Positions 1 through 20,611 of a DNA stretch of 23,531 bases are shown in pieces. Position 1 is the first letter of the stretch, and each line of letters opens with the position of its first letter. The notes under the pieces were generated by a model. That model ran no database searches. It saw only the letters and a list, made by a program, of their open reading frames with translations, and had not been told where the DNA came from. The position numbers were made by a program, and so were the translations under genes. The stretch is from a virus: positions 1-23,531 of the IMG/VR virus record IMGVR_UViG_3300021139_002043; one strand, 5' to 3'.

Positions 1-489
1 TCCTCCAGGCGATAGGCGCGACCAAAAGAAACCCAATGCTTCCAGTGTCGGCTTATAGAGATCCATATCTAAGTAGACAAAACTAAACGTCTCATCTGCT
101 ATCGTCTGATAGAGGATCTCAGGCACAAGTCCTTTTATCACTTTAAGATGCTCACAGTCACTCAAATACGTTCTTACTTGCTGTTCATTAGAAGTAAAAT
201 TACCCGCTTCGTGTTCACCATCCAAACGTTGACTGCCGGGAATTCCCTCAAAAGTATCAAACACATACATCTTCTTCGCATCGTGGAAAAGACATTTATA
301 GATGAATTTGGCAGATCCTCCCCTGTAAGTGCCACATTCAACCATAGCTCCGGGCACATCCACGCAATCTCGGGCCACTCTCCACAAATGCCAACATCTA
401 TCGGGAGAAGTCAATGCGTGGTCATGGATCTCTCGATACAAGTCTATGAACTTAAGAAAAATTCCGGCCATTATTTGTTCTTGATCCAT
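1..489 (-). CDS. TylF/MycF-type O-methyltransferase, 3' end outside window
   Basis: The gene starts at ATG 489, with an AGGAG about 10 bases upstream, and stays open for 163 codons to the left edge. Visible motifs match the TylF/macrocin O-methyltransferase family: a SAM-binding VECGTYRGGS at residues 50-59, FDTFEGIPGS at 77-86 and the metal/SAM-region LDMDLY at 140-145, followed by PTLEAL and SPGG. Family members methylate sugar hydroxyls using S-adenosylmethionine and Mg2+, and are frequent in glycan-decoration clusters. It starts 4 bases after the stop of the GT2–GT9 gene, so it is probably co-translated with it. The likely job is capping or modifying a sugar added by the neighbouring transferases; the acceptor is unknown. 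The family call is firm and the substrate is inference. Confidence 0.88.
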   Translation of the reverse strand, partial: MDQEQIMAGIFLKFIDLYREIHDHALTSPDRCWHLWRVARDCVDVPGAMVECGTYRGGSAKFIYKCLFHDAKKMYVFDTFEGIPGSQRLDGEHEAGNFTSNEQQVRTYLSDCEHLKVIKGLVPEILYQTIADETFSFVYLDMDLYKPTLEALGFFWSRLSPGG

Positions 490-493
490 ATTT

Positions 494-4423: not shown

Positions 4424-5752
4424 TTAGCTCTGGTTCGCATCGGCCGTGTCATCGAGCACGACGAACGCTTTCGGCTGTTCGGGAATGCCGCCAAGTCGGC
4501 CGGAAGCTCTAAAGGCGGTTCGGTTCTGTCTGAAGACTTCACCGGCCTGTCGAGACATTTCAACGGTTATACCGGTGCGCTCACCGATAAAGTAATGTTT
4601 CCAGTCGCCCAACACACAGTCTCCTCTATAGCCGAGACGTGCGGTGCGATAATCGGACACCACGACCGGATAACCCAGGACGTAACCGGCCACGCCTTCC
4701 GAAAAATCATTGTATCCGAGACCAAGCTGGATCACGGGCTGGCCGTTCTCATCCTTCTGTTTACGCAGGCTATTAAAACACGCTTTGGACATCATCCAAC
4801 ATGCGCCCGCATCGAACATAGGCGGCAATGCCGTGCTCATATTGAGCAAGTCTTCATATCTGACCCTACTTGCGGTCACTCGGTCAACACTACCAATGTT
4901 CGGGTCGTTCAATACACCCAACGGACGGGTGTTACCGAAGCCTCTCAGGAACTCACGGTCGGTCTGATACCAATAGGTGCCCTGGAAGAGTTGAACGAGC
5001 AAGTTACCGAGATTGATCGCGCTGTCCTCGATGAGAACGTTCGTGATCTCCGTGTAGGCCGAAATTTCATGAGCATCGAGGCTCAAAATATCGAACTGCG
5101 GACGGGTTTCCGGTTTCTCACCGCCCTCTTCGGTCCACGTTACGATCATGTTGCCGAAGAATTCTTCCTCACCCTCGGTAAGATCCTGAACCAAACGAGG
5201 CCATTTAATATTCGGGCCGGTCATCGGCCAAACTTGCGCTCTCGGCCAAACTATTGTGCCGGGAGGAGCGAATTGTAGCATTGCGTAACGAAAATCTTCC
5301 GGCACGAACAATCCACCGCCTGCGTCCTCGGTAGAACGCATAACGTCGGATATATCGAGCGCCTTGGTTTCTACCAAGAAAGGCATTCTTTTCTTGAGGG
5401 ACTTATTGGCTTCCATCAAGAACTCTTTGGTCTCATCACCCAAAGATTGAAAAACTCCGTGGGAGCCTCTCATGTAGCCCTTACCGGTAGCTTTCCAAAT
5501 TCCCTTCACATTGATAACGGAACCGCCCGGAAGACGATAAACGTCCTTTCCGACTTCCTCAAGATTGCCGTCATCAACTACACCGGTAGAGGCCGTATGA
5601 ACGGTAGTAACGGAGGGAGCAACCGCTTCCAACTTACCTAATCGTTCCTCATAACCTTTCGTAATCGTCCCGGCCACCGCATCGACTTTATCCTGGAGCA
5701 TCTTATCGAGTTCTTCCAGGCTCATCTTTTTTGCTTTGTTATCATCAGGCAT
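4424..5752 (-). CDS. Major capsid protein, HK97 fold, with N-terminal delta-like domain
   Basis: The protein has 442 residues. ATG 5752 is chosen over the in-frame ATG 5767 because GGAGAG lies 7 bases before 5752 but directly abuts 5767. Residues 1-129 are charged and helical (SLEELDKMLQDKVDAV and following), matching a scaffold-like delta domain; HK97's is 102 residues. A VETK at 127-130 followed by ALDISDVMRS is the expected place for maturation cleavage, leaving about 312 residues. The mature part carries phage_capsid (PF05065) signatures: GGGLFVPEDFRYAML at 145-159, the E-loop region near 182-225, YWYQTDREFLRGFGNTRPLGVL at 260-281 (dimer/spine helix and P-domain) and GYVLGYPVVVSD at 356-367. 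It forms the shell. The upstream 637-residue gene is a probable scaffold partner. Confidence 0.93.
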   Translation of the reverse strand: MPDDNKAKKMSLEELDKMLQDKVDAVAGTITKGYEERLGKLEAVAPSVTTVHTASTGVVDDGNLEEVGKDVYRLPGGSVINVKGIWKATGKGYMRGSHGVFQSLGDETKEFLMEANKSLKKRMPFLVETKALDISDVMRSTEDAGGGLFVPEDFRYAMLQFAPPGTIVWPRAQVWPMTGPNIKWPRLVQDLTEGEEEFFGNMIVTWTEEGGEKPETRPQFDILSLDAHEISAYTEITNVLIEDSAINLGNLLVQLFQGTYWYQTDREFLRGFGNTRPLGVLNDPNIGSVDRVTASRVRYEDLLNMSTALPPMFDAGACWMMSKACFNSLRKQKDENGQPVIQLGLGYNDFSEGVAGYVLGYPVVVSDYRTARLGYRGDCVLGDWKHYFIGERTGITVEMSRQAGEVFRQNRTAFRASGRLGGIPEQPKAFVVLDDTADANQS

Positions 5753-5780
5753 TTTATATCTCTCCATCTCCTATATTTGT

Positions 5781-7694
5781 CTATGCTTCAAGCTGTTCAA
5801 GCCTTGATTCAAGGGGTTTAGTAAATCTTTCCGCAATAATCCTATCGAATGCGCTCAGAAGTTCGTCGCTATCAAATTCGACCATATTGGCTTCCTTTGT
5901 TTCGACCTCTTCTCTTTTATCTTCTAGCCACGCTTTTAAAACAGTATCGCTCAAACAGTCAATCTTTTCTGCGACAATTTCCACAGGAGTCTTGTCCTTC
6001 TCTTTCTGTATCTTGAACTGTTTTTTGACCCATTTTTGAGCATCTTCGCTTTTCCATATTTGCTGATCGAATGAGTAATTGAGCATCTTATTGCAGGTCA
6101 CGCAAAAATCGCCGTCTACTCCGGTAAAATCTTTGATTTTGATCTTGTGAGTATGGCAGTCACAGTGATCGTCGTGGTCGAGCATTATGAGATGACTCTC
6201 TGAAGGCGGCTTATAGCCTTTCTCTTCTACTTGAACGGGCCCTTCCTCGATCACTTCTTCCTCTTTTTGTTTAAAGGGACATCCCTCTTCCGTGCAAGCG
6301 TCTATATCGGCCTGAGTGACATCTCTGTCACAGTGAATACAATATATGGGCTCTTCTTCGTCTTCGGGCTCTTCAACTTCCTCAACCGTCTCTTCCTCTA
6401 CCGGCTCCTCTTCATCACCCTCAAGGGCATTCAGACGCTCTTCCAGCGATTTGATTTTGTCTAACAGAAGGGCCGTTTTGGGATCTTCCTCATCTTCCGT
6501 TTCGACTTCTTCTACTTCAGGAGTTTCCTCAATCTCTTCCTCTTCTACGGGAGTCTCTTCCTCCTCTTCGGGCTCTTCCGGCTGATTGAAAGCTTCCTGC
6601 TCCTCTTCTTCAACAGGAGCCTCTTCCGCAGTCTCTACGGGCGCTTCCTCTTCAACCGGCGCTTCCGCCTCATCCAAAAGGGCTTTCGCTTTTTCGGGAT
6701 CTTCCGCAAGGAGAGCTTGGAATCGTTCTACGAGTGACATATCTTCCTCCTCATTTTCGAAGGGAATGTCTTCCTCTCCTTGTGGCATCTCTACCGGTAG
6801 CTCAGGCTCCTCTTCAGGCACGGGAGCGGCCTCTTGTGTTGGCTCCTCTTCTTGAGTTTCTTGTTCCGGCATATCCGGCAATTCAAATTCTTCTTGACCG
6901 GGCTCATCAGGTTCACCGGCATCGGGCACATTTACAAAATCGTTTGCTTCCTGATTTTCAGGCGCAGGTTGCTCGTCTTCCGGGAGTTCGTTTGCTCCGG
7001 GCTCTTCCTCTCCGCTGAATTCAAAGTAACTTCCCTGTCCTTGCTCTCCGGGCGACTCGATAGGCGCATCGTTCGGGGCTTGAGGGCTTGCTTCGTTCCA
7101 AAGCGATTCGGCTTCGGCCGCGCTCGATAAAGCGATTCCGACATCAGTTACTTTCCATTCACCGGTTACATGATTAAGACGAGAAACTACGGCAGGTTCT
7201 ACGCATTGGATCTCCAGGCCGGGGAGTTGTTTATCCGCAGCCAAATTATGAGTCCAAATGACTTTGAGTAACTTATCAAGCGTGTCCGTCACTACCGCTT
7301 TCTGCATGACGGCCGCTTGGTCCCCTATTCTGACTTTCCGCTGTATATTTTCAAGGGCATCCAGGCCAAGTGTTACACCTTGTAGCATGGACCCGACTAG
7401 ACTGTTTAATTGACCGGCAGCGCTCAACTTGGGATCGAGATCCGTGCTGTTGAGATACTGGCTCAGAACATTAATATATTCGTAATAGGCTTTCTTAGCC
7501 GCCATTCTCCCTTGCGCATACCACAACTCGGGAGCGGGCCAATTCGAGACAGTTGTTTGAGGGGCCATATTGTTTGCTCCCATCGGAGCATTTCCCTCTG
7601 TAATAGCGGCCGGAATAGCAATGTCGGACCCAAGATTACCGATCATTTTAGTAGTTATTTTTTGTTTTTTTGTTTTCTTCTTAGGCTTAGGCAT
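5781..7694 (-). CDS. Glu-rich scaffold-like protein with two putative zinc sites
   Basis: The protein has 637 residues. ATG 7694 overlaps the preceding stop by 8 bases and has GGAG 6 bases upstream. The N-terminus is strongly basic (PKPKKKTKKQK). Residues 50-195 look folded and helical, residues 205-450 are an extreme Glu/Pro low-complexity tract with a helical island at 319-345 and another at 405-425. Two Cys clusters may bind zinc: YCIHC (451-455) with C467 and C472, and HCDCHTH (510-516) with CVTC (531-534). Near the C-terminus VETK (597-600) repeats the capsid's putative cleavage motif, and the last 37 residues (ending TKPLESRLEQLEA) resemble the capsid delta domain (TKGYEERLGKLEA). Position directly before the capsid gene and acidity both suit a scaffold. 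The zinc sites are unusual for that role. Confidence 0.65.
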   Translation of the reverse strand: MPKPKKKTKKQKITTKMIGNLGSDIAIPAAITEGNAPMGANNMAPQTTVSNWPAPELWYAQGRMAAKKAYYEYINVLSQYLNSTDLDPKLSAAGQLNSLVGSMLQGVTLGLDALENIQRKVRIGDQAAVMQKAVVTDTLDKLLKVIWTHNLAADKQLPGLEIQCVEPAVVSRLNHVTGEWKVTDVGIALSSAAEAESLWNEASPQAPNDAPIESPGEQGQGSYFEFSGEEEPGANELPEDEQPAPENQEANDFVNVPDAGEPDEPGQEEFELPDMPEQETQEEEPTQEAAPVPEEEPELPVEMPQGEEDIPFENEEEDMSLVERFQALLAEDPEKAKALLDEAEAPVEEEAPVETAEEAPVEEEEQEAFNQPEEPEEEEETPVEEEEIEETPEVEEVETEDEEDPKTALLLDKIKSLEERLNALEGDEEEPVEEETVEEVEEPEDEEEPIYCIHCDRDVTQADIDACTEEGCPFKQKEEEVIEEGPVQVEEKGYKPPSESHLIMLDHDDHCDCHTHKIKIKDFTGVDGDFCVTCNKMLNYSFDQQIWKSEDAQKWVKKQFKIQKEKDKTPVEIVAEKIDCLSDTVLKAWLEDKREEVETKEANMVEFDSDELLSAFDRIIAERFTKPLESRLEQLEA

Positions 7695-10281
7695 TAGCTA
7701 CTCCGTTCGCTTCATTGTGCTTAACCGAATCTTTCATGAATGCATAGATTTCCGTTACGATATTGTTCAAGGAAGTAAACCCTGAAGAACCGGGCATTTT
7801 ACCTTCAACTACCGTCTTACAACTTTGAGAAATATCGGAAATCATTTTTGCAAGTTCCATCGCAGCTTGGGTTATAACTTCATCTTCAAATTCTTCCTGA
7901 GTCATTTGCGGCTTATTGGCATCGTATCCCTTGACCCCAAAGGCTTTGTCAATAAGGTCAGCAAGGGAAGCGCCCTTATTCGTGCCCGTCTTTTTCCCGG
8001 TTCCCTTAAATGCCCCTTCTGCTTCTAGTTTTTCATAAAGGGCATCAATTCTTTCGAGCAAGTCTATCTTCTTTTCTACATCATCGCCCTTAAGAACCTT
8101 TAACACTTCCGCTTTCTTTTCGTCGCTATCAAGCCAACCTAATGCATCCATTCTCGCAAAGGTTGTTTCCGGCTTAAAGGCGTATGTCCTATTGACACCC
8201 TCTAAATTTCTTCTTATTCCAAGTTCAACGAGTTTTTTAGCATATTGTTCTCTTTGAGCATCTACGGCGAATTTAACCGCATCTCTTTTCTGCGTCTCTT
8301 TCTCTCTTTTGATCTCCAACTCTATCGATCTATTTTTCGCCTTTTGTAATTCAACTTCAGAGTTGCCCTTTTTTCCGGGTTCTTTCGGGAGTTCAAAAGT
8401 ATCCTGCTCTTCTCTAAATTTTTTGTAATTCCCTAAAAACCGCTCTATGTCGCTTTGGAAATAATAAACGGTTTCTCCGAGAGCGCCTGCGCCCGCAGTA
8501 GCAGTAAGAGCCGCGAGCGTTCTACCGCTTAATTGAGGCAAAACTTTCTCGGAAGCCCACTGGTGATAAGTCTTAAGATTATCGGCAGCTTTTTTGTGTT
8601 GGGCTATTTGTCCCGCTTTTCTTTTTCGCATCAATTCAGAAGGCCAAACCCGCACTTGGAATTGCTTTGGCTTCCCCTTTTCACCCGTCATACTTAAAAT
8701 AGGATTGAGCTTAACAACTCTTTTCTCGCCTTCAGAACCAAGTTCCCATTTGCTTTTTGCAAGCCATTGTTTTGCTTTATTTTCCCAATATTCATTCACT
8801 TCCGCCACTTCCTCACTTGCTTCTTTAACTAAACCTGAAGTGGTCTTAGAAGTTCCCTTTATTCCCCAATGCTCAACTCCTCCCTCTCCTTTAAAAACCT
8901 CAAAACCCCATTTTGAAACCTGCTCTCTTGTAAAGGGCCACTTTTCACTTCCTAAGTCGGCAGGATTCATAGGCAATCGCCCATCGACAATGGCAAGGTT
9001 AGTGTAATCAACAGATTGAACTGCTTCTCTTGATAATTTGCCGTCTGCTCCTATCTTCCTTATTTTATGAAACAAAGTAAGACCGGTATGAGGATCAGTA
9101 TCAAAGTTTGCTTGCACTTCATGATAATTGTGCTTCGTGCTAATCAAATCCCATTCGGGAGAATGTTTAATGTCCCCCGACAACATGGGGCCAAGATCAC
9201 GGAATTCAGTAACCGGAATGCCATTCTCATGACGAACTTTGCCGGTAGCCTTGGCCAATAGTCTTCGTATTGGTCCTAAAGCACGAGCGAAAGTATAACC
9301 CTGATGTTCAAGGTAAGCCCGTCGTGCGCCGGTAATCCCTTTAAATTCACTTTCAGGCAAAATCTTTGTGAACTGAAGCCACGTAGGGTCTACTTCAAGA
9401 GGGTTTACTTCCCCTTCTTCCGTCAAAATACGAGCTTCCGTGCTCGCTCCCGGAGTGCGATAGAATTTCTCCTCTTCGGCTATAAGTTTTTTTCCTGCTA
9501 TTTTTGGCCTACTCGCTATCAAAGCACCTACGCCGACTATCATTGCGATAGTTGCAGCCGCAGTAATCAACTTGGCCTTTGATCTTTCGCTCTCGTCAGG
9601 ATGATCCTTCATAAAGGTATCATAGGCTTCTTTCACATCCCGAGACTGTTGAACTTCCCTGTCCCATTTCGCTCTGGAGGTTTTGACTTCGCTAAAAACC
9701 TTCTCCGTTCCTTCGGAATCGCTGACTCTCGGAATAGTTTTGCCGTTTACTTTTACTTTGCCGGGTCTCGATGCAATCGCATCCATGACTTCCTGTTCAC
9801 GCTTCTTCTGGTAAGCGGCAGGATCGGAAGCCAAGAGATACAGATCGGGATTCTGTTTTTCCAAAGCATAGTCTATGAGTTTTTGCCGAGTTTCTTCCTC
9901 AGTGATTTTGGGATTTTCTTCTTTCCATTGAGCGACAAGTTTCTCTTTGGCAGCCACAGGATCATTGGTCATGCGACCGGCATTCTTACGAGCGCCGCCC
10001 CATGCGCCTTTGGTGGGATGAGGACCGGCCGGTGCGCCTGCTTCATTTTTCTTAACGAATTCACCATCAGCACCACGAGGATGTTCACTTTCCACGAACT
10101 CTTCAGCAGTCATTTCTTTAGTAGCAATTTTATAAAGGTCACTAAGCCCTTTGCGTTGCATCTTCTCAAATTTATTCATATACTGAAGACTGTAAAAAAG
10201 CACATCAGGAGCCAAGAAAGTGACAATCTTCTTTTCAAAGGGAGTTAAATCATTAATATTTTTTTCCAATAGTGAACTCAA
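7687..10281 (-). CDS. Large virion-associated protein with ESEHPR motif, function unknown
   Basis: The protein has 864 residues from a TTG start at 10281 that overlaps the previous TGA (TTGA) and has GGGAG 7 bases upstream. Order of features: an N-terminal helical part (1-50); IATK-EMTAEEF, a candidate protease site at residue 55; ESEHPRGADGEF (64-75), a motif also present twice in the 1015-residue protein; a basic WGGARKNAGRM (94-104) like AT-hook segments of some terminase small subunits; a hydrophobic segment at 237-257 (LITAAATIAMIVGVGALIA); an alpha/beta region at 290-470 without recognisable motifs; a second hydrophobic segment at 587-609; and a long charged helical, probably coiled-coil part at 610-760. 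It is co-translated with the protease gene. I expect an internal head protein or ejection protein, but no family is recognised. Confidence 0.5.
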   Translation of the reverse strand: MSSLLEKNINDLTPFEKKIVTFLAPDVLFYSLQYMNKFEKMQRKGLSDLYKIATKEMTAEEFVESEHPRGADGEFVKKNEAGAPAGPHPTKGAWGGARKNAGRMTNDPVAAKEKLVAQWKEENPKITEEETRQKLIDYALEKQNPDLYLLASDPAAYQKKREQEVMDAIASRPGKVKVNGKTIPRVSDSEGTEKVFSEVKTSRAKWDREVQQSRDVKEAYDTFMKDHPDESERSKAKLITAAATIAMIVGVGALIASRPKIAGKKLIAEEEKFYRTPGASTEARILTEEGEVNPLEVDPTWLQFTKILPESEFKGITGARRAYLEHQGYTFARALGPIRRLLAKATGKVRHENGIPVTEFRDLGPMLSGDIKHSPEWDLISTKHNYHEVQANFDTDPHTGLTLFHKIRKIGADGKLSREAVQSVDYTNLAIVDGRLPMNPADLGSEKWPFTREQVSKWGFEVFKGEGGVEHWGIKGTSKTTSGLVKEASEEVAEVNEYWENKAKQWLAKSKWELGSEGEKRVVKLNPILSMTGEKGKPKQFQVRVWPSELMRKRKAGQIAQHKKAADNLKTYHQWASEKVLPQLSGRTLAALTATAGAGALGETVYYFQSDIERFLGNYKKFREEQDTFELPKEPGKKGNSEVELQKAKNRSIELEIKREKETQKRDAVKFAVDAQREQYAKKLVELGIRRNLEGVNRTYAFKPETTFARMDALGWLDSDEKKAEVLKVLKGDDVEKKIDLLERIDALYEKLEAEGAFKGTGKKTGTNKGASLADLIDKAFGVKGYDANKPQMTQEEFEDEVITQAAMELAKMISDISQSCKTVVEGKMPGSSGFTSLNNIVTEIYAFMKDSVKHNEANGVANA
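10048..10128 (-). repeat. TK-EMT-ESEHPR module, copy in the 864-residue protein
   Basis: This codes IATKEMTAEEFVESEHPR and then GADGEFVKKN. It is nearly identical, also at DNA level (GAAATGACT and CATCCTCGT shared), to 11565-11645, which indicates a recent duplication between adjacent genes. Confidence 0.85.
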
Positions 10282-13200
10282 ATTTTTTCTCCCTTCTCAA
10301 CCTTTACACTGATCCATTCTGACAAATTCGACATTCCATAGACCCTTCTATGATCTAAATTGCCTATTTTGATCGCATTCAAGGCAATATCCTTCATGGG
10401 ATCGTCTCCTTGAGAGGCGAATTGACCATAGTAATGTTGCACTTCCAAAATACCATCCGTATGAAATTCTTTTCTATGACCCTCCGAATCTTCTACTGTA
10501 AAGACTGCTCCCCTATGTCGAGAACTCGTTATATTCTTAAGGGCCGCATCCACTTCATCAGGCCATAATTTTTTAATTTTTTCTAATTCTGGCACCACGT
10601 CTACATCAGTCATTTTGTAATCGACAACTTTAAATTTCTGTCTTCCGGCCGTCATGTTTCCAAACGGATCAACCTGAACTGTTTCTCCCCACGGCTTTTC
10701 TTCTGAAGGAAACTCCCATTTGTCGGGTAACTTTAAGCCCGTGGGAATATCAATTTCCTTTCCAATAAGACCTTTACAGACACCCTCATATTCCTTCAAA
10801 TGGCGTTGCTGAACCTCATCATGTTTCATGGTGATTGAATGAGCATATTCGTGCATAAGTAATTCACGAGGCGTAAATTCATCTCCAATTACCCGAGACA
10901 AATCCTCATGAATTCCGGCATTGATATAAATCGTGTCCGTTCCCACAAAGTAGCAAAAATTATTGTTGAGAATATTCTTCACATTGAAAACATTGAATTG
11001 AGTATGGCTTAAGAGAACGACCTTTGCCGTTCCACCTTCAGGAAGATGTCCAAATTTCTTCGCCAAATCTTTCTTGAACTCATCACTGTTTACGTAATCA
11101 ATGATTTGCTGTTGGAATTTAGTCCTCTTTGAATCCTCGAAAACTCGATTCTCCACCTGAAGATTAATGATATTTGTTAAAGCTTTTTTATTAGGATTCG
11201 GCTTTGGACACGCCTTCACAACATCATCGGCCCTCACTTGGGCCTGTTGAAGGTTCTCGGAAGACTTAAGGATGTCACTATCACGCAAAATAACGTAACC
11301 CATTTGACTTGCTCCTGCTATCCCAAGAGCAAGTAAGACGTCGGCTCCTCCTACAATATTTGATTTACTTTTGCCCATTAGAGCAAGACTCCCGGCTCCA
11401 GCCCCAATGACCACTCCTGCGTGAAGGGCCATTTCTAAAACACTGGATGGTCGAGTAGTCGGCATGTCTTTATATTTAGGATCGTCAAAAAAATCAGGTT
11501 TATTTACCGTCTTTTTATTAGATTTTGGAATCTTATCTTGTTTTGGCTGAGAAACTTCTCCTTCGTTCTTTTTTGCAAATTTACCATCTTCGGCACGAGG
11601 ATGCTCACTTTCAACAAATTCCCCAGAAGTCATTTCTTTGGTTTCAATAACTCCGGTCATGTGACCGGAGTTTTTTAATTCATGAACCATCTTGTCGTAA
11701 AAAGTTTTAAGTTTCTTATATTGTTCAGTTTCCGTTGCCCCAATAGATTCGGCCTTTGATAGAGCCGCTTTGGTGAGAGTCAAGATTCCAAGAAGTTTAT
11801 CAGTTGCATCTAAAGGACCAAGTTCTTTAATGACATTGTTCTTCAACCAATTGCTGATTTTTTTACTAACCCATTCTTGCGTTTTGGGATCTTTGGCCGC
11901 ATGTTTAATCCCATAATACAGACCCGTAACCACTCCTATTTTGACAATCCAGCCCTTTGCCCAATTGCCCCATGAGTCCTTGTCTTTGATTTCCTCAATG
12001 TCCTGGCGGTCCCTTCTTTGATTCGCCAGAATGATATCGAGCTTTCGATTGACTTGTTCATCTTTCGGATCATAATGACCACCGATAATAGGCGTAGAGC
12101 TACTACCGGAAGAAGTGAATTCGCCGTCCTTTGCACGAGGATGTTCCGATTCATCCCAATTGAAGAGTTTCGTCACAAAGCCCTTCCAGACAATAGGCAC
12201 ATCAGGAGACTCTTCAAGACCATCTACTATTTGTCGGCAATCCATCCCCAACCCACGCCACATTTCAACCATTTTAGGTCGATCTTCGTAAACAATTTCC
12301 ACTCGGGCTTTGGGAATTTCGCCGGATTCAACCCAATCTCTCTTGAGATCAACGTCATCTTGGCGATTATCAGCAGGTCGCATCAACAATTTGTCATAAT
12401 GAACATCATGATCATGAAGCCATTTCTCGGTTTGCTCCCTTACCTGATCCGACCTGCCGGAAGCAATATAGATTTCATGGCTGCTTGCCCACTTATTGCA
12501 CAGATCTATGATCTCCTGATTGGGAGTATCTTTGACGGAAGCCTCATAAAAGGCGTCATAGTCGCCCTTTTGAGGATCTTTTTTCTCAATCAAATGAATT
12601 CTATGTTCAACATTGGCCAAAGTGCCGTCCAAATCGAAGACTGCAATGGCCTTATCGGGCATTCCTACGCCCTTTGTCACACTTTCAATGAAGAAATAGC
12701 TCTTCGGGTTGAGCCATTCTTTGATTATCGGTGTAACATCCTGTCCTTCGTAGGATTTCATGACCATATCCGCGACTTTATTGCCCTTCTGAGCGTAGGT
12801 TATGAGAGCTTCACGGTTAGAAGGTATAGAAAGTAGCGAAATTTCGACTAATTCGACCTCTTTATAGTATTTTTTAAGTCCTTTGTTCTGTAAATATGGC
12901 GGTAAAAGGTGATCATGAGGATCTTTGACGTAATCTACCGGCACAAAACCGGCTGAGAGGCCCCTAAGACATCCTTCATTGATCAAAGTAAGGCATTCTT
13001 CGCCTACGGGAGTCGTAGCAAGGTAGAATTTCGCCCATAAACCCTCTTCTCGGGGCTCAATTGCAATACAGCGGCCTATTGGAAGGCTGTCACGGGTAGT
13101 TTTGTGCTGATGACCAAGCAAAAGGACCGGATTTTCCATATAAATCGGCAATCTTTTGACAAAAGCCGACACAGGAACGAATTCCATGTCCCTATCTACC

Positions 13201-13325
13201 GTGGGAGTGGATGTAATGGCCTCAAAAGTGCGTGCTTTCGGGTCTACCACGTTGAGAATCGTTCCAAAATCACGAGTAACCTTCGGGCCGTCTATCTCCA
13301 TGCTGCTTTTTGCTACTTGAGCCAT
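10278..13325 (-). CDS. HK97-type prohead protease fused to Pnkp-like HAD phosphatase and a HExxH metallopeptidase domain
   Basis: The protein has 1015 residues, several times the length of a normal prohead protease. ATG 13325 directly follows the previous TAG. Residues 18-180 are the S78 protease: PVLLLGHQHK with the catalytic His region (H72/H74), LPIGR, LSAGFVP with Ser124, and VELVEISLLSIPSN (157-170). Residues 222-368 match the 3'-phosphatase half of T4 Pnkp: AVFDLDGTLA (D231, D233), ASGR (288-291), KLLMRPADNRQDD, K328 and YEDRPKMVEMWRGLG (346-360). ESEHPR motifs occur at 392-397 and 572-577, each shortly after a TK site (386, 563). Hydrophobic stretches lie at 456-472 and 633-680. HEYAHSITMKH (825-835) has metzincin-like HExxHxxxxxH spacing with Thr instead of the usual Gly. 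A cleavable polyprotein is my inference; see findings. Confidence 0.87.
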   Translation of the reverse strand: MAQVAKSSMEIDGPKVTRDFGTILNVVDPKARTFEAITSTPTVDRDMEFVPVSAFVKRLPIYMENPVLLLGHQHKTTRDSLPIGRCIAIEPREEGLWAKFYLATTPVGEECLTLINEGCLRGLSAGFVPVDYVKDPHDHLLPPYLQNKGLKKYYKEVELVEISLLSIPSNREALITYAQKGNKVADMVMKSYEGQDVTPIIKEWLNPKSYFFIESVTKGVGMPDKAIAVFDLDGTLANVEHRIHLIEKKDPQKGDYDAFYEASVKDTPNQEIIDLCNKWASSHEIYIASGRSDQVREQTEKWLHDHDVHYDKLLMRPADNRQDDVDLKRDWVESGEIPKARVEIVYEDRPKMVEMWRGLGMDCRQIVDGLEESPDVPIVWKGFVTKLFNWDESEHPRAKDGEFTSSGSSSTPIIGGHYDPKDEQVNRKLDIILANQRRDRQDIEEIKDKDSWGNWAKGWIVKIGVVTGLYYGIKHAAKDPKTQEWVSKKISNWLKNNVIKELGPLDATDKLLGILTLTKAALSKAESIGATETEQYKKLKTFYDKMVHELKNSGHMTGVIETKEMTSGEFVESEHPRAEDGKFAKKNEGEVSQPKQDKIPKSNKKTVNKPDFFDDPKYKDMPTTRPSSVLEMALHAGVVIGAGAGSLALMGKSKSNIVGGADVLLALGIAGASQMGYVILRDSDILKSSENLQQAQVRADDVVKACPKPNPNKKALTNIINLQVENRVFEDSKRTKFQQQIIDYVNSDEFKKDLAKKFGHLPEGGTAKVVLLSHTQFNVFNVKNILNNNFCYFVGTDTIYINAGIHEDLSRVIGDEFTPRELLMHEYAHSITMKHDEVQQRHLKEYEGVCKGLIGKEIDIPTGLKLPDKWEFPSEEKPWGETVQVDPFGNMTAGRQKFKVVDYKMTDVDVVPELEKIKKLWPDEVDAALKNITSSRHRGAVFTVEDSEGHRKEFHTDGILEVQHYYGQFASQGDDPMKDIALNAIKIGNLDHRRVYGMSNLSEWISVKVEKGEKI
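11565..11645 (-). repeat. TK-EMT-ESEHPR module, second copy in the protease polyprotein
   Basis: This codes ETKEMTSGEFVESEHPR and then AEDGKFAKKNEG, directly after palindrome copy 2. It is the closest relative of the 864-protein copy at 10048-10128. Confidence 0.85.
11649..11672. repeat. 24-bp palindrome, copy 2 of 3
   Basis: It is identical to copies 1 and 3. It is read as NSGHMTGV (residues 552-559) in the 1015-residue protein, exactly before the putative cleavage site IETK-EM that opens the metallopeptidase module. Confidence 0.95.
12114..12179 (-). repeat. ESEHPR module, first copy in the protease polyprotein
   Basis: This codes FVTKLFNWDESEHPR then AKDGEFT, after the phosphatase domain. 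It is more diverged than the other two copies but keeps the same layout: a TK site, a few residues, ESEHPR, then DGxF. Confidence 0.8.
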
Positions 13326-16106
13326 CTACTTTTTATCCTTAATATTCAACTTGCCGACTTTGGGAGTTCCCACTTTGGGAACATGGCCCATCGGCTTCAA
13401 TTGCTCCCTCTCCATTTTCTCTTCTTGGCGAGCCGCTCTCTCAGCTTTATCCTCCTGAGACTTCTTTCTCTTCTCCTCATAGGCGGGATCTTTGAAAGCG
13501 TGTTGTTCCTGCGGGCTCATCTGTCTAAATTCGGCCTTAGTTTGCTCTCTACCTTCTTCTTTGCCCTTCTGATTGCCTAAGACAGCCCCCATTCCGAGAG
13601 CCGCTCCAGCGGTCAATAGGTGCGACTTGAGAGACTTTTCTTCTTTGGGATTTCGACTCTCCTCTATTTTTTTCTTAAGGAAATAAACGCCAGTTCCGCC
13701 TATAGCCGCAGGTATAGCAAGTTTGGCCGCTCTTTTAAGTTGAACTTTTCGACCTGCCTTATTGAGTTCACGCCGAACCAATTCACTTGGACCCATCTCA
13801 GTATGGAATTCATCGCCTTTCATGTAATCTCTATCGGCAAGCCCCTTTGTGCGAACGTAATAAGGCTCTCCCTCAGAATCATAAAATTTCTCAGGAGTAT
13901 TTTTACCGGCACGACCACCAGCAGCCGCTCCAGCAGACCCTATGCCGGTTATTATGCCAAGACCAGCTAAATCCGCATCACGAGCAGCAAGTTTTTTGAT
14001 TTTCTTTGAATGCCTCAAGAGAGCACCCGTTCCTAAGGTTGCAGCAACTCCAGCCGCACTTCCTTCACCAGCTCCCGCCAAAGCACCTCTTATTCTACCG
14101 CCTTCCGGCGCACTAGCAGCGCCGGAAGCAGCTCCCGTAACACCGCCTATCGCAGCGCCTACACCACAGGACTTATGAAAATCGTGTGCTACATGTCCTA
14201 ATTCTTGCAATGCACGCTCTTTGAAACTGCCCTTAGTCACAACTTCAGGACCATCAAATTCCTTATATCCGTAAGGATCTTCGGGTTTATCCAATTTGGC
14301 CGTTCCCATTATGCCGCCGCCAATCATCCCCTGAGCCTGAGCCGTATCTGCGACCTTACCTCTAGCTTGAACCGCCGCTCGTCTTGCTCCCGGAACTCTC
14401 TGGCCCGATCTTGCCGCTTTAATGGCCTCTACAGCCCTCTTCTCATTGATATGAGTAGTTGTTCCGGCAAGTGCCCCACCACTCAAGCCGCCTATCGCAG
14501 CCCCTCTCAAGGCACCTTGCACTCTATCTTCGGGAGAGCTTAATGCACCTGTGGCCGCACCAGTAGCAGCGCCGCCCATAGCGCCACGTAGACCGGCCTT
14601 GGCCATTTGTTTAGTGGGAGTAATGGCAGATAAAATGCCTTTGGTCACAGTTGTCGGCCCTTCCAACTCTTCATAGTTTTTTTTTACATCGGGACTATTC
14701 TCATCCCTCTTGAGTTTACGAACACCCGCCTGAGCCACATCATCAGCCAAGTTGCCTATGGGACGTAGATGTTCCAACACATCTCCAACTATGCCTTTGG
14801 TTTCGGTGTCAACAGAGTCAGCGGGGGTCACTGTATCCGTTTTGCCGTTATAACTACGATTCAAGTTTGAGTCTCCGGGATTTGCGACCATAGAATTAGG
14901 CATTTGGAAACCGGAATTCGCAGGAGCGCCAAACCCGGCATTTCCTTGCACACCTTTCTCTTCTTTTTTACTATGCCGCATTTTAGAAAAGTTTATAGCG
15001 AGATTGGCTTGTCGTTTTGTCTCAGTATCCGCCTTGGGATCGGACATAACATGATGAGCGTATTCTTCCGTGCCCATACCGGCTGCTTCCGCTTTGGCCT
15101 TAAATGCTCCGGGGTGTTTCACCACTTCACTTTCGGGCTTACCGAATATAGTGCCGCCCTTGACCACGACTTCAGGGCCTTCAAGTTCTTTCACCTTCAT
15201 CCTATCCGGGTTGAGGGCAGGCTGAGCCGCTACTCCACGCTCAAAGTCATGTTGCGGAGAAGTAGACGGAGCGGTATTCAACGAAGGATCTCCGGGGACC
15301 AATCCTTTCTCTTTCAACTTGTCGGTTAATTCACGAAATCTTTTAGGAAGTTCCTTTTCACTTGTGGCCGATGTTCCATATTTCTTGAGGTTCTCGGCAC
15401 GACTAACAGCTTCTTTTGTGGCTGCGCTTGCTGCTTTGGCAAACTTGTCGCCTGAGAAAATGCCCTTTTTCTTCACTTCGATGGTTTTGCCCGAAGCAAA
15501 TTCACCCTTCTTGGAAATGCCTTTTTCTTCTTTTTTACGACCAAGGAGATAAGCGCCTGCGCCTAAAGCGGCAGCGCCAGCTCCTAATCCGAGAGCGACT
15601 TTGGCTCCTCGACCTAATTTGCTTTTCTTCGCTGCCTGAGAAACAACCTTTTCTCCTTGAGATACGGGAGTTGGTTTGGGTTTAGGTATCTCAGACTTCT
15701 TCGGTTCAAACGCTTTGCTTAATTCCTCGTCATTCAAATCACGATAGCCGACACGTCTTTTGTCTTGACGAAGTTCATTCTTCTCACGCATCTCGGCCAA
15801 TTTCTTCTTGCCCTCTTTAGTACGTCCAAATGAAAAGGCATCGTCGGGTCTTTTGCGGAGAACGTCATAACCGCCACCATAAGTCTGAGTGCCCCCATCT
15901 TTGGTCTCAACCGTATTGCTCCACACCATACCCTTAGTAACGGTTTCAACATCGTCACTCATAGCCTTGGCACGCATTTCTGCGATTTGATAACAATTTA
16001 CGTCCTCTTTAGCGTTGGGTTTTTGAGAAAGTCCATGCTCAAACTGTTCCATATCGTAGCCATTAGAGGAATCCATTTCTGAGTAAGAGGCTTTTCCGCG
16101 TGCCAT
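13326..16106 (-). CDS. Glycine-zipper head polyprotein, probable internal/ejection protein
   Basis: The protein has 926 residues from ATG 16106, with AGGAG 7 bases upstream; it begins MARG like the 352-residue protein. It is built from repeated units. TK/VK-G sites follow acidic leaders at K58, K316 (ELEGPEVVVKG), K437 (DTETKG), K489 (ELEGPTTVTKG), K625 (EFDGPEVVTKG) and K754 (YYVRTKG), with related KEEKG/S at 195, 384 and 824. Between them are Gly/Ala-rich hydrophobic segments at about 168-190, 505-550, 647-697, 713-733, 796-811 and 830-845, each flanked by basic residues, as in membrane-inserting glycine zippers. The C-terminus (850-905) is charged and probably coiled coil. I recognise no family. 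Position between portal and protease and the repeated sites suggest internal head peptides that could help DNA cross the host membrane. Confidence 0.6.
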   Translation of the reverse strand: MARGKASYSEMDSSNGYDMEQFEHGLSQKPNAKEDVNCYQIAEMRAKAMSDDVETVTKGMVWSNTVETKDGGTQTYGGGYDVLRKRPDDAFSFGRTKEGKKKLAEMREKNELRQDKRRVGYRDLNDEELSKAFEPKKSEIPKPKPTPVSQGEKVVSQAAKKSKLGRGAKVALGLGAGAAALGAGAYLLGRKKEEKGISKKGEFASGKTIEVKKKGIFSGDKFAKAASAATKEAVSRAENLKKYGTSATSEKELPKRFRELTDKLKEKGLVPGDPSLNTAPSTSPQHDFERGVAAQPALNPDRMKVKELEGPEVVVKGGTIFGKPESEVVKHPGAFKAKAEAAGMGTEEYAHHVMSDPKADTETKRQANLAINFSKMRHSKKEEKGVQGNAGFGAPANSGFQMPNSMVANPGDSNLNRSYNGKTDTVTPADSVDTETKGIVGDVLEHLRPIGNLADDVAQAGVRKLKRDENSPDVKKNYEELEGPTTVTKGILSAITPTKQMAKAGLRGAMGGAATGAATGALSSPEDRVQGALRGAAIGGLSGGALAGTTTHINEKRAVEAIKAARSGQRVPGARRAAVQARGKVADTAQAQGMIGGGIMGTAKLDKPEDPYGYKEFDGPEVVTKGSFKERALQELGHVAHDFHKSCGVGAAIGGVTGAASGAASAPEGGRIRGALAGAGEGSAAGVAATLGTGALLRHSKKIKKLAARDADLAGLGIITGIGSAGAAAGGRAGKNTPEKFYDSEGEPYYVRTKGLADRDYMKGDEFHTEMGPSELVRRELNKAGRKVQLKRAAKLAIPAAIGGTGVYFLKKKIEESRNPKEEKSLKSHLLTAGAALGMGAVLGNQKGKEEGREQTKAEFRQMSPQEQHAFKDPAYEEKRKKSQEDKAERAARQEEKMEREQLKPMGHVPKVGTPKVGKLNIKDKK
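14229..14264 (-). repeat. EFDGPxVVTKG repeat (putative cleavage motif)
   Basis: This codes residues 615-626 of the 926-residue protein (KEFDGPEVVTKG). The other copies are at 14637-14672 and 15153-15191. A diverged relative (MEIDGPKVTRD) is at residues 9-19 of the protease protein. Confidence 0.8.
14637..14672 (-). repeat. ELEGPxxVTKG repeat (putative cleavage motif)
   Basis: This codes residues 479-490 (EELEGPTTVTKG). It is followed by ILSAI and a glycine-zipper segment. Confidence 0.8.
15153..15191 (-). repeat. ELEGPEVVVKG repeat (putative cleavage motif)
   Basis: This codes residues 306-318 (KELEGPEVVVKGG) of the 926-residue protein. It has the same acidic leader and small residue after Lys as the other copies. 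Confidence 0.8.
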
Positions 16107-16129: not shown

Positions 16130-16153
16130 AACTCCGGTCATGTGACCGGAGTT
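16130..16153. repeat. 24-bp palindrome, copy 3 of 3 (intergenic)
   Basis: It is identical to copies 1 and 2. It lies in the 71-base gap between the portal stop (16178) and the ATG of the 926-residue gene (16106), about 12 bases upstream of the latter's AGGAG. The frame of NSGHMTGV equals the portal frame continued past its TAA. A hairpin here could affect translation or mRNA stability of the downstream gene. Confidence 0.95.
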
Positions 16154-16177: not shown

Positions 16178-18589
16178 TTATTCCATTTCCGGCTTTGCCA
16201 AGCACGCACAATATGGATGGCGCGGCATCTCCAGATATGTTTTATTCTCAACATAGTCAACGATTGTCTGGCCTTTCTCGCTGTTGCACTCTTTACAAGT
16301 GCGCTCTCCGAGAGTCGGCAGCAAAGAACATCGTTTGACTACAATTTTTCCTGAGTCTTTATTGATTGTTCTATAGCTGGCATCTACACCGGCAAAGGCT
16401 CCAGCAGCCAGTTCCGTCCGAGAAATCATCTCGGCCCTCTTCGTTCCTATGTCCTCAAATCTCTTTTGAATCATCTCCGCAACTGCATCACTATCGAGAC
16501 CTTTATCAAGGCCCTCTCGAATGATTTCTGTAAGGGCCCTCTTAGTGCTTACCACTTTGAGATCGGCGCTTCTGTTGAGAAACTTTCCAGCCGCTCGCAA
16601 GCTTTCTTTTTCGTAAACATCGGGCGGATCGAAATCATTAAAGCCCGACTTTTGAACCATTAGGAAACCACTCTGATAACCGGCCTCAACCGCTTTATGA
16701 ACAAATGAAGATGCCTGAGAAATATAATCCTCTCTCAAGACGCTTTCATCTATATCAAACGTGCTGCCTTTGGTCGTAAACTTTGAGAAGTTCTTTGTTA
16801 CGATATCCGCGATTTCAATACCTTTTTGAACGAAGAACTTGCCGCTCTCTTCCGCAAATGATTCTTCTAAGGGAACAATAATAGAGAAGTAATCTTCGAT
16901 AATATCGAAATAGAGTTTATCTTCCTCTTCTCCATATTCCTTTAGAGCGTAATCTCGAATGGCCTTGGTTAAGAGCCTTGTAAGGCCCATATCCCTTGAA
17001 CGCTCTTGACCCAAAAGGCTTTGAATACTCGGTTCGTCGGAATGAGCCGCTAATAGACCTGCCAATCCCCCTCTTCTTCCTCGTGAAGCGGAAAGAAGAG
17101 CTGAAAGAGCCGGTCGGGAATTTTGTAGAGCTTGATTCACCAAAGTCGTTAGGGCTTGACCAGTTGGCCTTCCCCCTTCTACACCGTGATTTCCTTGGTC
17201 TTCCGGCGCATTACTTTCTTCTCCTGGAACTGCGCCCATTGGTTGAGGCGGACTCTGGAAATCTTTCCATAACTTGTCAGCCTCTTCACTATTTCCGGGT
17301 AACGGCTGGCCTCCAACCCACGGGACTTCGGCTAACGGAGACTTAAAGGGCTTCACACCTTCTCTTCTTCTTATTTCATTAAGGGTCACAAGCCCGATTG
17401 ACAACTCGGTCTGATTCTTGCTTAATTCAAATTCATCGTCTCTCGCAAGAGCGTTTGCGAATTCAAACTCATATCCATCGAGGTTTCGATAACGAGTCAC
17501 CAATTGAGCATTGATACAGTCTTCAAACATTCTCAATCGAGGGCTCAAACAGTTCTTCGCAAAGATATTCTGAGTGTTAAGGGATGCGCTCTTGTTGCTC
17601 TCTCCCATAATCCCTAGCATTGCTTCGGGAACACCGTAACCACTTAATATTACTTCTTTTGTCCAATTCGCCATCGACAAAAATTCAAAATCATGGGCGC
17701 TCATCGAAAGCTGTTGAATCTTGACATTCTCGCTCATGACCGCAGGCTTGAAGTTTTTCCCCGGTCCTCTGAAGCGAGCCATCCATCCTTCGCTTACTCT
17801 CTCAGCCGCTACTTTCCCTATCTGTTTTTCGGGAATAATCACGAAGTCAGGACGGGCTCCGTTCTCAAAAAATCCCTTGGTGTAAACCTGAAGATGAAGG
17901 TCAATCTCAGTTGCATGGCTCATAGCCTGCAAGGGAGACATAGGAACATAAGGATTCTCAGGATGCGGATAATGAAAATAGAGCATATCCTTCCAGGGAA
18001 TAAATTCGGTCTTCATTTTGTTCTGAGGATTTGAGAAATGAAAGCCTTTAATAAAAGTGTCGGGCGTAGTCCCCAATTCCACCTGGACAAGACAATGAGG
18101 AGGATATGGAATTAATTGAGCCGGTTTCCCGGCTCCATTAGAGAGAATCTTAACAAAAGCACATCCGGCGAGTTCCAAATTCAAGAAAATATATCGCATC
18201 AATTGACGGCCCGAAAGATACTCATTGGGCCGTTTTAAAAGCTTTATGATCGGGTGAGAAAGAACTCTCTCAAACGCTTCCCTGTCCTGTTTGCTTTTCT
18301 CTTTATAGAGGTAATAGGGAACGGCCGCAACTTCATTCGCAATGATATTTACGACCGGATAAACCCATCCTCTATATCGTTGCAGGCCCCTTGCGGCATC
18401 CACCTTCGGAGATATAGTGCCCGGTTCATTCCCCCTAACGGTTTGAAGACCGGAACGTAATTCTTCCCATCCCTTACCCGTAACGAGCTGAAGACCGGCA
18501 GTCTCTATCTCGTCTTCAAACGATTTGACTTCATAAACCGGTCTTCCCCATGTCTTATAGGCAGTCGTTATATTCTGTAAGAAGCCCAC
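16178..18589 (-). CDS. Portal protein fused to MuF-like minor head protein
   Basis: The protein has 803 residues, with a GTG start 3 bases after the preceding stop. Residues 60-440 form an HK97-type portal (PF04860): YRGWVYPVVNIIANEVAAVP (72-91), HPIIKLLKRPNEYLSG near 112-127, a wing/stem region with SPLQAMSHATEIDLHLQVY (218-236), a long GYGVPEAMLGIMGESNKS (318-335) and the C-terminal crown region with VTLNEIRRREG (401-411). A Gln/Gly/Pro linker (445-535) leads to a helical part and a MuF domain (about 640-803): SRTELAAGAFAG (723-734), RTCKEC (763-768), GQTIVDYV and MPRHPYCACLAKP (788-800), the usual Cys/His zinc-like end. The portal is the DNA channel at the head vertex and MuF proteins sit inside the head near it. 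FTTKG at 604-608 resembles the TK-G sites. Fused portal–MuF genes are known in other phages. Confidence 0.93.
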   Translation of the reverse strand: MGFLQNITTAYKTWGRPVYEVKSFEDEIETAGLQLVTGKGWEELRSGLQTVRGNEPGTISPKVDAARGLQRYRGWVYPVVNIIANEVAAVPYYLYKEKSKQDREAFERVLSHPIIKLLKRPNEYLSGRQLMRYIFLNLELAGCAFVKILSNGAGKPAQLIPYPPHCLVQVELGTTPDTFIKGFHFSNPQNKMKTEFIPWKDMLYFHYPHPENPYVPMSPLQAMSHATEIDLHLQVYTKGFFENGARPDFVIIPEKQIGKVAAERVSEGWMARFRGPGKNFKPAVMSENVKIQQLSMSAHDFEFLSMANWTKEVILSGYGVPEAMLGIMGESNKSASLNTQNIFAKNCLSPRLRMFEDCINAQLVTRYRNLDGYEFEFANALARDDEFELSKNQTELSIGLVTLNEIRRREGVKPFKSPLAEVPWVGGQPLPGNSEEADKLWKDFQSPPQPMGAVPGEESNAPEDQGNHGVEGGRPTGQALTTLVNQALQNSRPALSALLSASRGRRGGLAGLLAAHSDEPSIQSLLGQERSRDMGLTRLLTKAIRDYALKEYGEEEDKLYFDIIEDYFSIIVPLEESFAEESGKFFVQKGIEIADIVTKNFSKFTTKGSTFDIDESVLREDYISQASSFVHKAVEAGYQSGFLMVQKSGFNDFDPPDVYEKESLRAAGKFLNRSADLKVVSTKRALTEIIREGLDKGLDSDAVAEMIQKRFEDIGTKRAEMISRTELAAGAFAGVDASYRTINKDSGKIVVKRCSLLPTLGERTCKECNSEKGQTIVDYVENKTYLEMPRHPYCACLAKPEME

Positions 18590-19534: not shown

Positions 19535-20593
19535 TTAGTCCTCGTCTTTCTCCAACGCTCTTTTGACACCATAGCCAGCCATACCGGCAACCGTTGCGCC
19601 TGTGCCTAAAGCAGTACCACCAGTGGCCATCTGATTATGGTTGGCAAGTTTCGATGCTCTACCAAGAGAAGTCTTCTCCCTTTTGCTTCGACTCAAAGCT
19701 TGACGATTTTTCATGTCCTTCAGACCGGTTCCTATCGCCTCACCAACCCTTTTGACACCGCCCTTTGCCGCCTCTACAATGCCCTTCTTCTCCATCTTGC
19801 CACCGATACACTTCTCTTCTTTTTCGGTAGTTTCTTTACCGGCTCGATATGCCCTTGCGATAGAACTATTCTTTATGGGGTGAAGAGTATTCTCTTTTAT
19901 GGCCCTAATTGGATGCTTAGTGTCTTCCCAATCTGCCTTATAACTCTCTTTAATGCCAGCCTTAGCACCCTCTCCTCTTTTGCCCTCTCCAGCTCCTATG
20001 GCCCCCGCCGCTCCACGAGCACCAACATTTAGCCCTACACCACCAGCCGCACTACCAGCCAAAACGCCTCCAGCCTTATATTTGTCGGCATTGCGTTTGA
20101 AATGCTCTTTGGCACCCTCTACGACTCTCCCACCAAATTTCTTGGCTCCTTCATAAGCCTCTTTAGCTCGCCCCTTCAGCACCACTTCCGACCCGATCTC
20201 CTTGCAAACAGTCTGAGTGTGCGCCTGAGCATTATCCAGAAACTCGCCCACGTTGTAGGGATTGAGTTCGATGTTGGCCGCAATGCCTTTGGCCACGACA
20301 TCGTTGTATCTCTCGTAGCCCTTGCGCTGACAATCCTGGACGTAAGTATCCGCTATGTCCTTCTCGGCACCCTCACGGACCTTATCCACGTCTTTGGAGA
20401 TAGTCAGATCATCTTCCTCTGTTTTACGACCGCCTTTCTTGGGGCCTTTACCGGAAGCAAGTTCTTTCATCTCTTCTTCTTCGGTAGCATCCCTCCCGGC
20501 GTCTTTGTTCGGTAGAGTCTCCGGGCTCTCGCCGCCCTTCGTCTCGATACCAAATCCCTTAGAAACTATAAAATCAGCATTTCCTCTCGCCAT
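19535..20593 (-). CDS. Glycine-zipper protein of the head cluster, related in build to the 926-residue protein
   Basis: The protein has 352 residues. ATG 20593 (MARG) is preferred over ATG 20599 because GGAGAG lies 7-8 bases before it; the 926-residue gene begins the same way. A putative site IETK-GG occurs at residue 19, with others at VVAK-G (102), EVVLK-G (140) and MEKK-G (270). The stretch after 140 (GRAKEAYEGAKKFGGRVVEG) and that after 270 (GIVEAAKGGVKRVGEAIGTG) are recognisably the same repeat. Gly/Ala-rich hydrophobic segments are at 173-204 and 321-343. Residues 30-75 are highly charged. There are no catalytic motifs. I infer an internal head or ejection protein processed like its larger relative; the gene is certain, the role is not. 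Confidence 0.55.
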   Translation of the reverse strand: MARGNADFIVSKGFGIETKGGESPETLPNKDAGRDATEEEEMKELASGKGPKKGGRKTEEDDLTISKDVDKVREGAEKDIADTYVQDCQRKGYERYNDVVAKGIAANIELNPYNVGEFLDNAQAHTQTVCKEIGSEVVLKGRAKEAYEGAKKFGGRVVEGAKEHFKRNADKYKAGGVLAGSAAGGVGLNVGARGAAGAIGAGEGKRGEGAKAGIKESYKADWEDTKHPIRAIKENTLHPIKNSSIARAYRAGKETTEKEEKCIGGKMEKKGIVEAAKGGVKRVGEAIGTGLKDMKNRQALSRSKREKTSLGRASKLANHNQMATGGTALGTGATVAGMAGYGVKRALEKDED

Positions 20594-20611
20594 GTTCATT
20601 CTCTCCGTGTG

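Follow-up and report, generated by a model that had tools for sequence, protein, structure and literature searches.

The stretch of DNA analyzed here (the window) is a 23.5-kb fragment, 23,531 nucleotides (nt), of the IMG/VR virus record IMGVR_UViG_3300021139_002043, from a rare, uncultured tailed phage, and our subject is the gene at 13326..16106 on its minus strand, which encodes a 926-amino acid (aa) protein rich in glycine-zipper segments. Our best reading is that this protein resembles the internal proteins of phage T4 and is a precursor that would yield several small glycine-zipper peptides. In its full form the proposal includes a 354-aa companion protein; both would be tagged precursors inside the head, cut by an S78 prohead protease, with zipper peptides that are ejected with the DNA and act on a membrane, and for this whole chain we judge the case to be evenly balanced. 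If it is true, T4-style targeting, prohead-protease processing, and podovirus-like membrane-active segments, three parts previously known separately, would be united in one modular polyprotein of an HK97-type, apparently long-tailed phage.

Glycine-zipper segments and hairpin modules

A first-pass annotation of this sequence had proposed at least six glycine-zipper hydrophobic segments in the 926-aa protein, and the counts confirmed it. The gene is an uninterrupted open reading frame (ORF) with a ribosome-binding site, AGGAG, located 8 nt before the ATG. With an uncharged run defined as at least 15 residues without D, E, K, R, N, Q, H, or P, the protein contained seven Gly/Ala runs, at residues 170-189, 508-524, 535-551, 646-666, 682-697, 713-731, and 830-844, relative to a mean of 0.08 in shuffles that keep the composition, none of which (0 of 500) equalled it; an additional eighth Gly/Ala run, at about 794-812, has a proline. 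The motif GxxxGxxxG was present 14 times where 1.62 were expected (0 of 500 shuffles), and the Gly-Gly spacing had maxima at 4, 8, and 12. That the segments are bounded by basic residues, as had also been stated, was modestly true, because lysine and arginine made up 28% of the 8-aa flanks of the runs and 20% of the sequence elsewhere outside the runs. The Pfam models Gly-zipper_Omp and Gly-zipper_YMGG matched residues 506-547 (E 1e-4 to 3e-4), but the scores did not reach the curated cut-offs (22.3 bits versus 25, and 21.1 versus 28.9). The Kyte-Doolittle means of the Gly/Ala segments were only 1.05-1.7, as compared with 1.9 for a holin helix, and therefore the segments do not qualify as strong transmembrane helices of the classical type. 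The segments, and one small domain between them, are as follows.

13326..16106, minus strand: predicted 926-aa glycine-zipper polyprotein precursor (uninterrupted ORF, ribosome-binding site, zipper and site statistics)
15540..15599, minus strand: glycine-zipper segment 1, residues 170-189 (uncharged-run statistics; near-copy in a 320-aa protein of contig L011)
14535..14585, minus strand: glycine-zipper segment 2, residues 508-524, hairpin arm one (Pfam match, runs, module alignment, AlphaFold2)
14454..14504, minus strand: glycine-zipper segment 3, residues 535-551, hairpin arm two (Pfam match, runs, module alignment, AlphaFold2)
14109..14171, minus strand: glycine-zipper segment 4, residues 646-666 (runs, module alignment)
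14016..14063, minus strand: glycine-zipper segment 5, residues 682-697 (uncharged-run statistics)
13914..13970, minus strand: glycine-zipper segment 6, residues 713-731 (uncharged-run statistics)
13671..13727, minus strand: hydrophobic Gly/Ala segment 7, residues 794-812, with the proline (hydrophobicity)
13575..13619, minus strand: glycine-zipper segment 8, residues 830-844 (uncharged-run statistics)
14976..15122, minus strand: small domain, residues 329-377 (family phrog_20603; stand-alone 59-aa Thermus phage ORF)

In the Thermus phages P23-45, P74-26, and G20c the domain at residues 329-377 stands by itself as a 59-aa ORF, next to a DNA repair exonuclease. A tblastn search of cultured phages with the 926-aa protein and the proteins of two relatives found nothing beyond this Thermus module. 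The 926-aa protein used directly as an IMG/VR query found no relative, and a scan of IMG/VR DNA with the repeat motif returned only a contig that was already known.

Relatives were instead found in IMG/VR by searches with the major capsid protein (MCP), portal, and protease, and five of them include the region: 3300037504_000875 (contigs L001 and L012), 3300037307_000543 (L002 and L049), 3300037264_001640 (L003), 3300025121_000163 (L004 and L011), and 3300025073_000649 (L010). The four of their MCPs that were aligned are 54-63% identical to that of the window. In all five this protein class occupies the same position, and the gene that lies between portal and protease encodes 501, 358, 628, or 252 aa; where the contig reaches upstream of the portal there are one to three further class proteins per relative (858, 647, and 142 aa in L012; 289 and 320 aa in L011; 398 and 761 aa in L049). 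Overall identity within the class is 17-27%, with tag, sites, and zippers kept. As far as they were examined, the distant phages L009 and L013-L047, the relatives named above excepted, did not contain the gene class, and a search of bacterial genomes with the MCP gave no match.

In an alignment of twelve modules from five phages, five glycine columns were invariant (two plus three, spaced by 4), while local shuffles of this alignment gave a mean of 0.6 and a maximum of 2 invariant Gly columns in 100 trials. AlphaFold2 run on the module alignment predicted two helices forming a hairpin, with block values of the predicted local distance difference test (pLDDT) of 80-95 over residues 11-50. The 289-aa protein of a relative passed the cut-off of PF05433, Glycine zipper 2TM (28.2 versus 24.2), and the stretch GAGAYLLGRKKEEKG of the 926-aa protein reappears as GAGAYALGRKKEEKG in the 320-aa protein of L011. 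Judged by sequence comparison, the hairpin modules are both repeated and exchanged between genes.

N-terminal tag and predicted protease sites

The 926-aa protein begins with MARGKASYSEMD (residues 1-12), a capsid-targeting-like tag of the pattern RGx[AC]x[FYVI]. This pattern was found near the N terminus of 11 of 357 ORFs, which correspond to 10 distinct genes, every one of the glycine-zipper polyprotein class, and altogether 12 times in the 50,935 aa of these phages. It is common to the 926-like and the 354-like proteins, two groups with no alignment between them, and a further class member, the 761-aa protein of L049, has the variant tag MPREKSTFAVMD. As the pattern was defined after the sequences had been seen, the evidence it offers is its rarity elsewhere and not a P value.

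The protein that presumably cuts the 926-aa protein is the S78 protease fusion encoded at 10278..13325. To define its sites we used the MCP only. In a five-phage MCP alignment one lysine is invariant and directly precedes the conserved N-arm, the window sequence being VETK|ALDISDVMRS, and in a multiple alignment it shares a column with K103|S104 of HK97 gp5, the HK97 maturation cut; when the MCP profile was compared with HK97 gp5 by hhalign, no usable local alignment resulted. The resulting motif (V, I, or F at P3 or P4, T at P2, K at P1, and G, A, or S at P1') occurred five times in the two glycine-zipper proteins of the window, where 0.47 were expected (P 0.001). A relaxed motif occurred 51 times in the class proteins of the relatives, where 17.5 were expected (P 0.001), and was not enriched among non-virion proteins totalling 8,891 aa (14 versus 16). 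The extended repeat E[LF][ED]GP..V.K|G was present three times in the 926-aa protein as opposed to 0.02 expected; the L049 761-aa protein has four copies of ELDDS.IVEK|G, and in the L012 647-aa protein KGYEAYNEGIVQKGFQIEEKG is repeated between successive zippers. A position-specific matrix trained on the sites of the relatives was dropped in favor of the MCP-only motif because the ELDDS.IVEK repeats of one phage dominated it and the MCP site was not its top-scoring one. The tag and sites are listed below.

16071..16106, minus strand: N-terminal tag MARGKASYSEMD, residues 1-12, capsid-targeting-like (RGx[AC]x[FYVI] pattern)
15930..15944, minus strand: predicted protease site TVTK|G, after K58 (MCP-derived motif)
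15156..15170, minus strand: predicted protease site ELEGPEVVVK|G, after K316 (extended repeat; a weaker site)
14793..14807, minus strand: possible protease site DTETK|G, after K437 (a weaker match, from the matrix trained on relatives)
14637..14651, minus strand: predicted protease site ELEGPTTVTK|G, after K489 (MCP-derived motif, extended repeat)
14229..14243, minus strand: predicted protease site EFDGPEVVTK|G, after K625 (MCP-derived motif, extended repeat)
13842..13856, minus strand: predicted protease site YVRTK|G, after K754 (MCP-derived motif)
5360..5377, minus strand: MCP maturation site LVETK|A, K135|A136 (Lys invariant in the five-phage MCP alignment)
19535..20599, minus strand: 354-aa companion protein (tag, site GIETK|G, two Gly-rich runs at residues 176-190 and 324-345)

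Cuts after K58, K316, K437, K489, K625, and K754 would give seven pieces; those bearing zippers, 59-316, 490-625, 626-754, and 755-926, would have 1, 2, 3, and 2 of them and net charges of +19, +7, +5, and +12, respectively. The suggestion in the first-pass annotation that the segments could be released as peptides thus gained real support from the enrichment of MCP-type sites lying between zipper modules, the cleavage itself being predicted. It had also claimed that such segments recur in a 352-residue protein, which is the 354-aa companion counted from its second Met. The two uncharged Gly-rich runs bear this out as far as the segments go (the zipper motif is taken up below), and the companion has orthologues in L011, L012, and L049.

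Comparison with known systems

In phage T4 a capsid targeting sequence takes internal proteins into the head (PMC3012670, PMC9026906). The T4 internal proteins (IPI-III and Alt) are diverse, have only a tag of about 10 N-terminal residues in common, followed by a head-protease site, and occur several per phage, all of which is like the class described here. Unlike T4 gp21, which cuts after Glu, the S78 protease would cut after Lys; tag, protease family, and payload also differ, and there are many internal sites here as opposed to one near the N terminus in the T4 internal proteins. No PHROG or Pfam match to the T4 internal protein or Alt families was found. The inner-body ejection proteins of phiKZ and SPN3US are comparable, being abundant, head-internal, and processed by the prohead protease, with several sites in their propeptides (PMC9026906, PMC10052503); in contrast, these are giant myoviruses with an S/A-x-E motif, and the text consulted describes no zippers.

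With respect to membrane action, weakly hydrophobic Gly/Ala-rich segments are a feature shared with P22 gp7, gp16, and gp20 and with T7 gp14, gp15, and gp16. The Kyte-Doolittle range of the 926-aa protein compares with 1.1-1.44 for T7 gp16 and 1.0-1.3 for P22 gp7, and the C-terminal end of P22 gp7 is a pair of glycine-zipper runs; hhalign of the hairpin profile against P22 gp7 gave no useful local match. The podovirus ejection proteins, to which the first-pass annotation had likened the segments, are therefore an analogy only, and they differ in not being known as tandem protease-cut polyproteins and in belonging to short-tailed phages, whereas the tail genes of the relatives are apparently of the siphovirus type. 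Glycine zippers of the repeated GxxxG kind in the type VI secretion effector Tde1 and in tape-measure proteins permeabilize membranes and aid delivery (PMC10240207). The N-terminal zipper of Tde1 is needed for membrane permeabilization and translocation, showing that such zippers can permeabilize the bacterial inner membrane and carry protein through (PMC10240207). In both cases, however, there is a single N-terminal segment on an effector or tail protein rather than a polyprotein of the head. Phage polyvalent proteins (Iyer et al. 2017) are large and multidomain, are thought to enter the host with the DNA, and in some cases are processed by proteolysis (PMC5512222); they are enzymatic, whereas the 926-aa protein has no recognized enzyme domain, and the 1015-aa protease fusion is the closer match. 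A search of the literature on glycine zippers in virions or ejection found nothing on a system like this one.

The first-pass annotation had added that such a role is not usual in a phage of this build, and this fits: the head is HK97-type (PF05065, S78), and two relatives have what we infer, mainly from position and size, to be a siphovirus-type gene order. In contigs L054 and L048 we found a head-tail adaptor and Neck1, assigned by PHROG matches, together with a presumed terminator, a single presumed tube protein, two ORFs of chaperone size, and a presumed tape-measure protein, with no space for a sheath gene between terminator and tape measure; tube and tape measure were assigned by size and position only, and the window itself is without tail genes. 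The presumed tape-measure proteins (1350+ to 1681 aa) have no uncharged runs of at least 15 residues, as compared with two in lambda gpH and three in the HK97 tape-measure protein, a contrast that is a lead and not a result because the L048 protein is clipped by the contig end.

Proposed mechanism and alternatives

We propose that the RGxAxF tag would take the precursor into the prohead, much as the T4 capsid targeting sequence does, and that the S78 protease, which would also trim the MCP after VETK, would cut it at the repeated V-x-T-K|G sites into about six or seven pieces; both steps rest on sequence statistics and comparison. Among the products would be four net-positive pieces with one to three glycine-zipper segments, several of them as two-helix hairpins. 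By the precedents of T4, giant phages, and podoviruses, these basic hairpin peptides may remain with the DNA and exit with it at infection, and, from glycine-zipper biology, they may then insert weakly and oligomerize in the host membrane, permeabilizing it for DNA or for co-packaged enzymes. Membrane activity of head-packaged peptides is plausible by analogy, because the hydrophobicity and the P22 gp7 zipper pair match and the presumed tape measures of the relatives lack membrane-like segments. A DNA channel would be just one possible version of the last step. The bolder idea that membrane crossing has moved from the tape measure to the head, so that ejected hairpin cassettes build a DNA passage in the host membrane of a long-tailed phage, we consider unlikely. 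The proposal, if true, would explain in a testable way how DNA or cargo gets through the inner membrane in a phage whose tape-measure protein is without membrane segments. From the tag and VTK|G site one can also predict which proteins of these uncultured phages make up the head-internal proteome, and a tag this short might serve to load proteins into such heads.

Several results weigh against this proposal. The zipper segments are weakly hydrophobic, with positive octanol sums; there is no homology to known ejection proteins (no PHROG match, and phage matches only at residues 329-377); the site motif is short, and the matrix trained on relatives did not place the MCP site first. GxxxGxxxG in the 354-aa protein is at chance (1 versus 1.09 expected), which is the part of the claimed recurrence that failed, and the L002 358-aa protein has the tag and sites and no zippers, so that zippers are not the sole payload. 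Moreover, one source (PMC10052503) expects prohead-protease pieces generally to exit the head. This last point leads to the main and strongest rival, that the protein belongs to an internal scaffold or core and has multiple sites so as to be chopped small, its pieces exiting before or during DNA packaging and its Gly/Ala helices serving packing or solubility. The position of the gene among head genes, the high divergence of the sequence outside the tag and glycines, and the long propeptides of phiKZ and SPN3US, which have several sites for removal and are expected to exit (PMC9026906, PMC10052503), would all suit it. However, a separate acidic scaffold-like ORF is present, neither it nor the MCP shows any of these runs, a disposable core needs neither invariant 4-spaced glycines nor seven long uncharged runs, and predicted pieces with sizes of 13-27 kDa would not exit easily. 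We favor retention and function because the pieces are long and positively charged and the zipper glycines are conserved, and hold a disposable core to be improbable.

It is a little less probable, in our view, that the zipper peptides work as in Tde1 and pass co-packaged enzymes, rather than DNA, across the inner membrane. Candidates for such enzymes are the PNKP phosphatase, 2H-phosphoesterase-like, and metalloprotease-like parts of the protease polyprotein, where enzyme domains are fused to the protease with K|EM...EHPR tags between them; the zipper of Tde1 is required for permeabilization and delivery (PMC10240207), and phages are known to deliver multidomain effectors (PMC5512222). Nevertheless, the zippers and enzymes are in separate proteins with no direct link, and the co-packaging is itself inferred. 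An uncut precursor that holds the prohead, with its portal, at the inner membrane of the host until cleavage frees it would accord with a gene adjoining that of the portal. Such a tether is very improbable: the protease works within the prohead and not where a membrane anchor would sit, ordinary co-translational insertion calls for stronger hydrophobicity than these segments have, and there are several tagged proteins per phage. To the idea that the segments are functionless Gly/Ala-rich linkers, an accident of composition, we give hardly any credence, even though the sequence is fast-evolving and low-complexity-like and the L002 358-aa protein lacks zippers; the GxxxGxxxG motifs and uncharged runs far exceed those of same-composition shuffles, which largely refutes it, the glycine spacing is conserved, and there is recurrence in five relatives. 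Thus, the zipper observation was confirmed and the interpretation first placed on it was supported in part, with the polyprotein-peptide portion strengthened.

Neighboring genes and other observations

The main genes of the window are all on the minus strand, in the order TerL C-terminus, 354-aa, 313-aa, portal-MuF, 926-aa, S78 protease fusion, 864-aa, presumed scaffold, and MCP. Those around the 926-aa gene are the following.

16178..18589, minus strand: portal protein with MuF domain (PF04860, E 2e-59; phrog_2662)
10278..13325, minus strand: S78 prohead protease with PNKP-phosphatase and further regions, 1015 aa (PF04586, E 8e-7; PF25109, E 4e-21; phrog_80)
7687..10281, minus strand: 864-aa conserved protein with two hydrophobic segments (cargo tag K|EM...EHPR near its start)
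5781..7694, minus strand: acidic protein, presumed scaffold, upstream of MCP (position and composition only)
4424..5767, minus strand: HK97-family MCP (PF05065, E 7e-41)

The presumed scaffold had no Pfam or PHROG match. Using the 864-aa protein as a search query gained no further phages, and its AlphaFold2 model was unusable (mean pLDDT 44). An 864-like protein is joined to the protease in three relatives; the fusion of protease, cargo, and 864-like protein can reach 2171 aa and has parts that, judged by eye, are 2H-phosphoesterase-like and HExxH metalloprotease-like. The tag K|EMT.EEFVESEHPR..DGEF precedes each cargo region in the protease polyprotein and the 864-aa protein (window 7687-13325), and its DNA repeat is 91 nt long and 76% identical. 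The C terminus of the 864-like protein duplicates the MCP N-arm, VETKALDMAGVMSSQMDAQGGLFAEP (L008 1-517, L012 17000-17400, L003 7900-8079), and is followed by a zinc-ribbon-like CxxC..CxxxxCP that is seen again in the presumed scaffold.

An exact 24-bp near-palindrome, AACTCCGGTCACATGACCGGAGTT, has three copies in the window (2980-3003, 11649-11672, and 16130-16153; 0 expected) and was found in none of the relatives' sequences examined. One copy lies between the portal and the 926-aa gene; the other two are in or beside other ORFs and are translated NSGHMTGV. Glycosyltransferase-like and sugar-enzyme genes occupy 494-2975 of the window and lie downstream of the MCP in those relatives that reach that far (L001-L003, L007, and L008), a pattern suggestive of glycosylation of the capsid or of another virion protein. 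L010 contains at 84-3002 a ribonucleotide-reductase-like ORF with an apparent intein-like insertion, and at 123-1955 of L014, upstream of a large-terminase-like gene, there is a 610-aa ORF that consists almost entirely of Ser-rich SSSSESSSS repeats.

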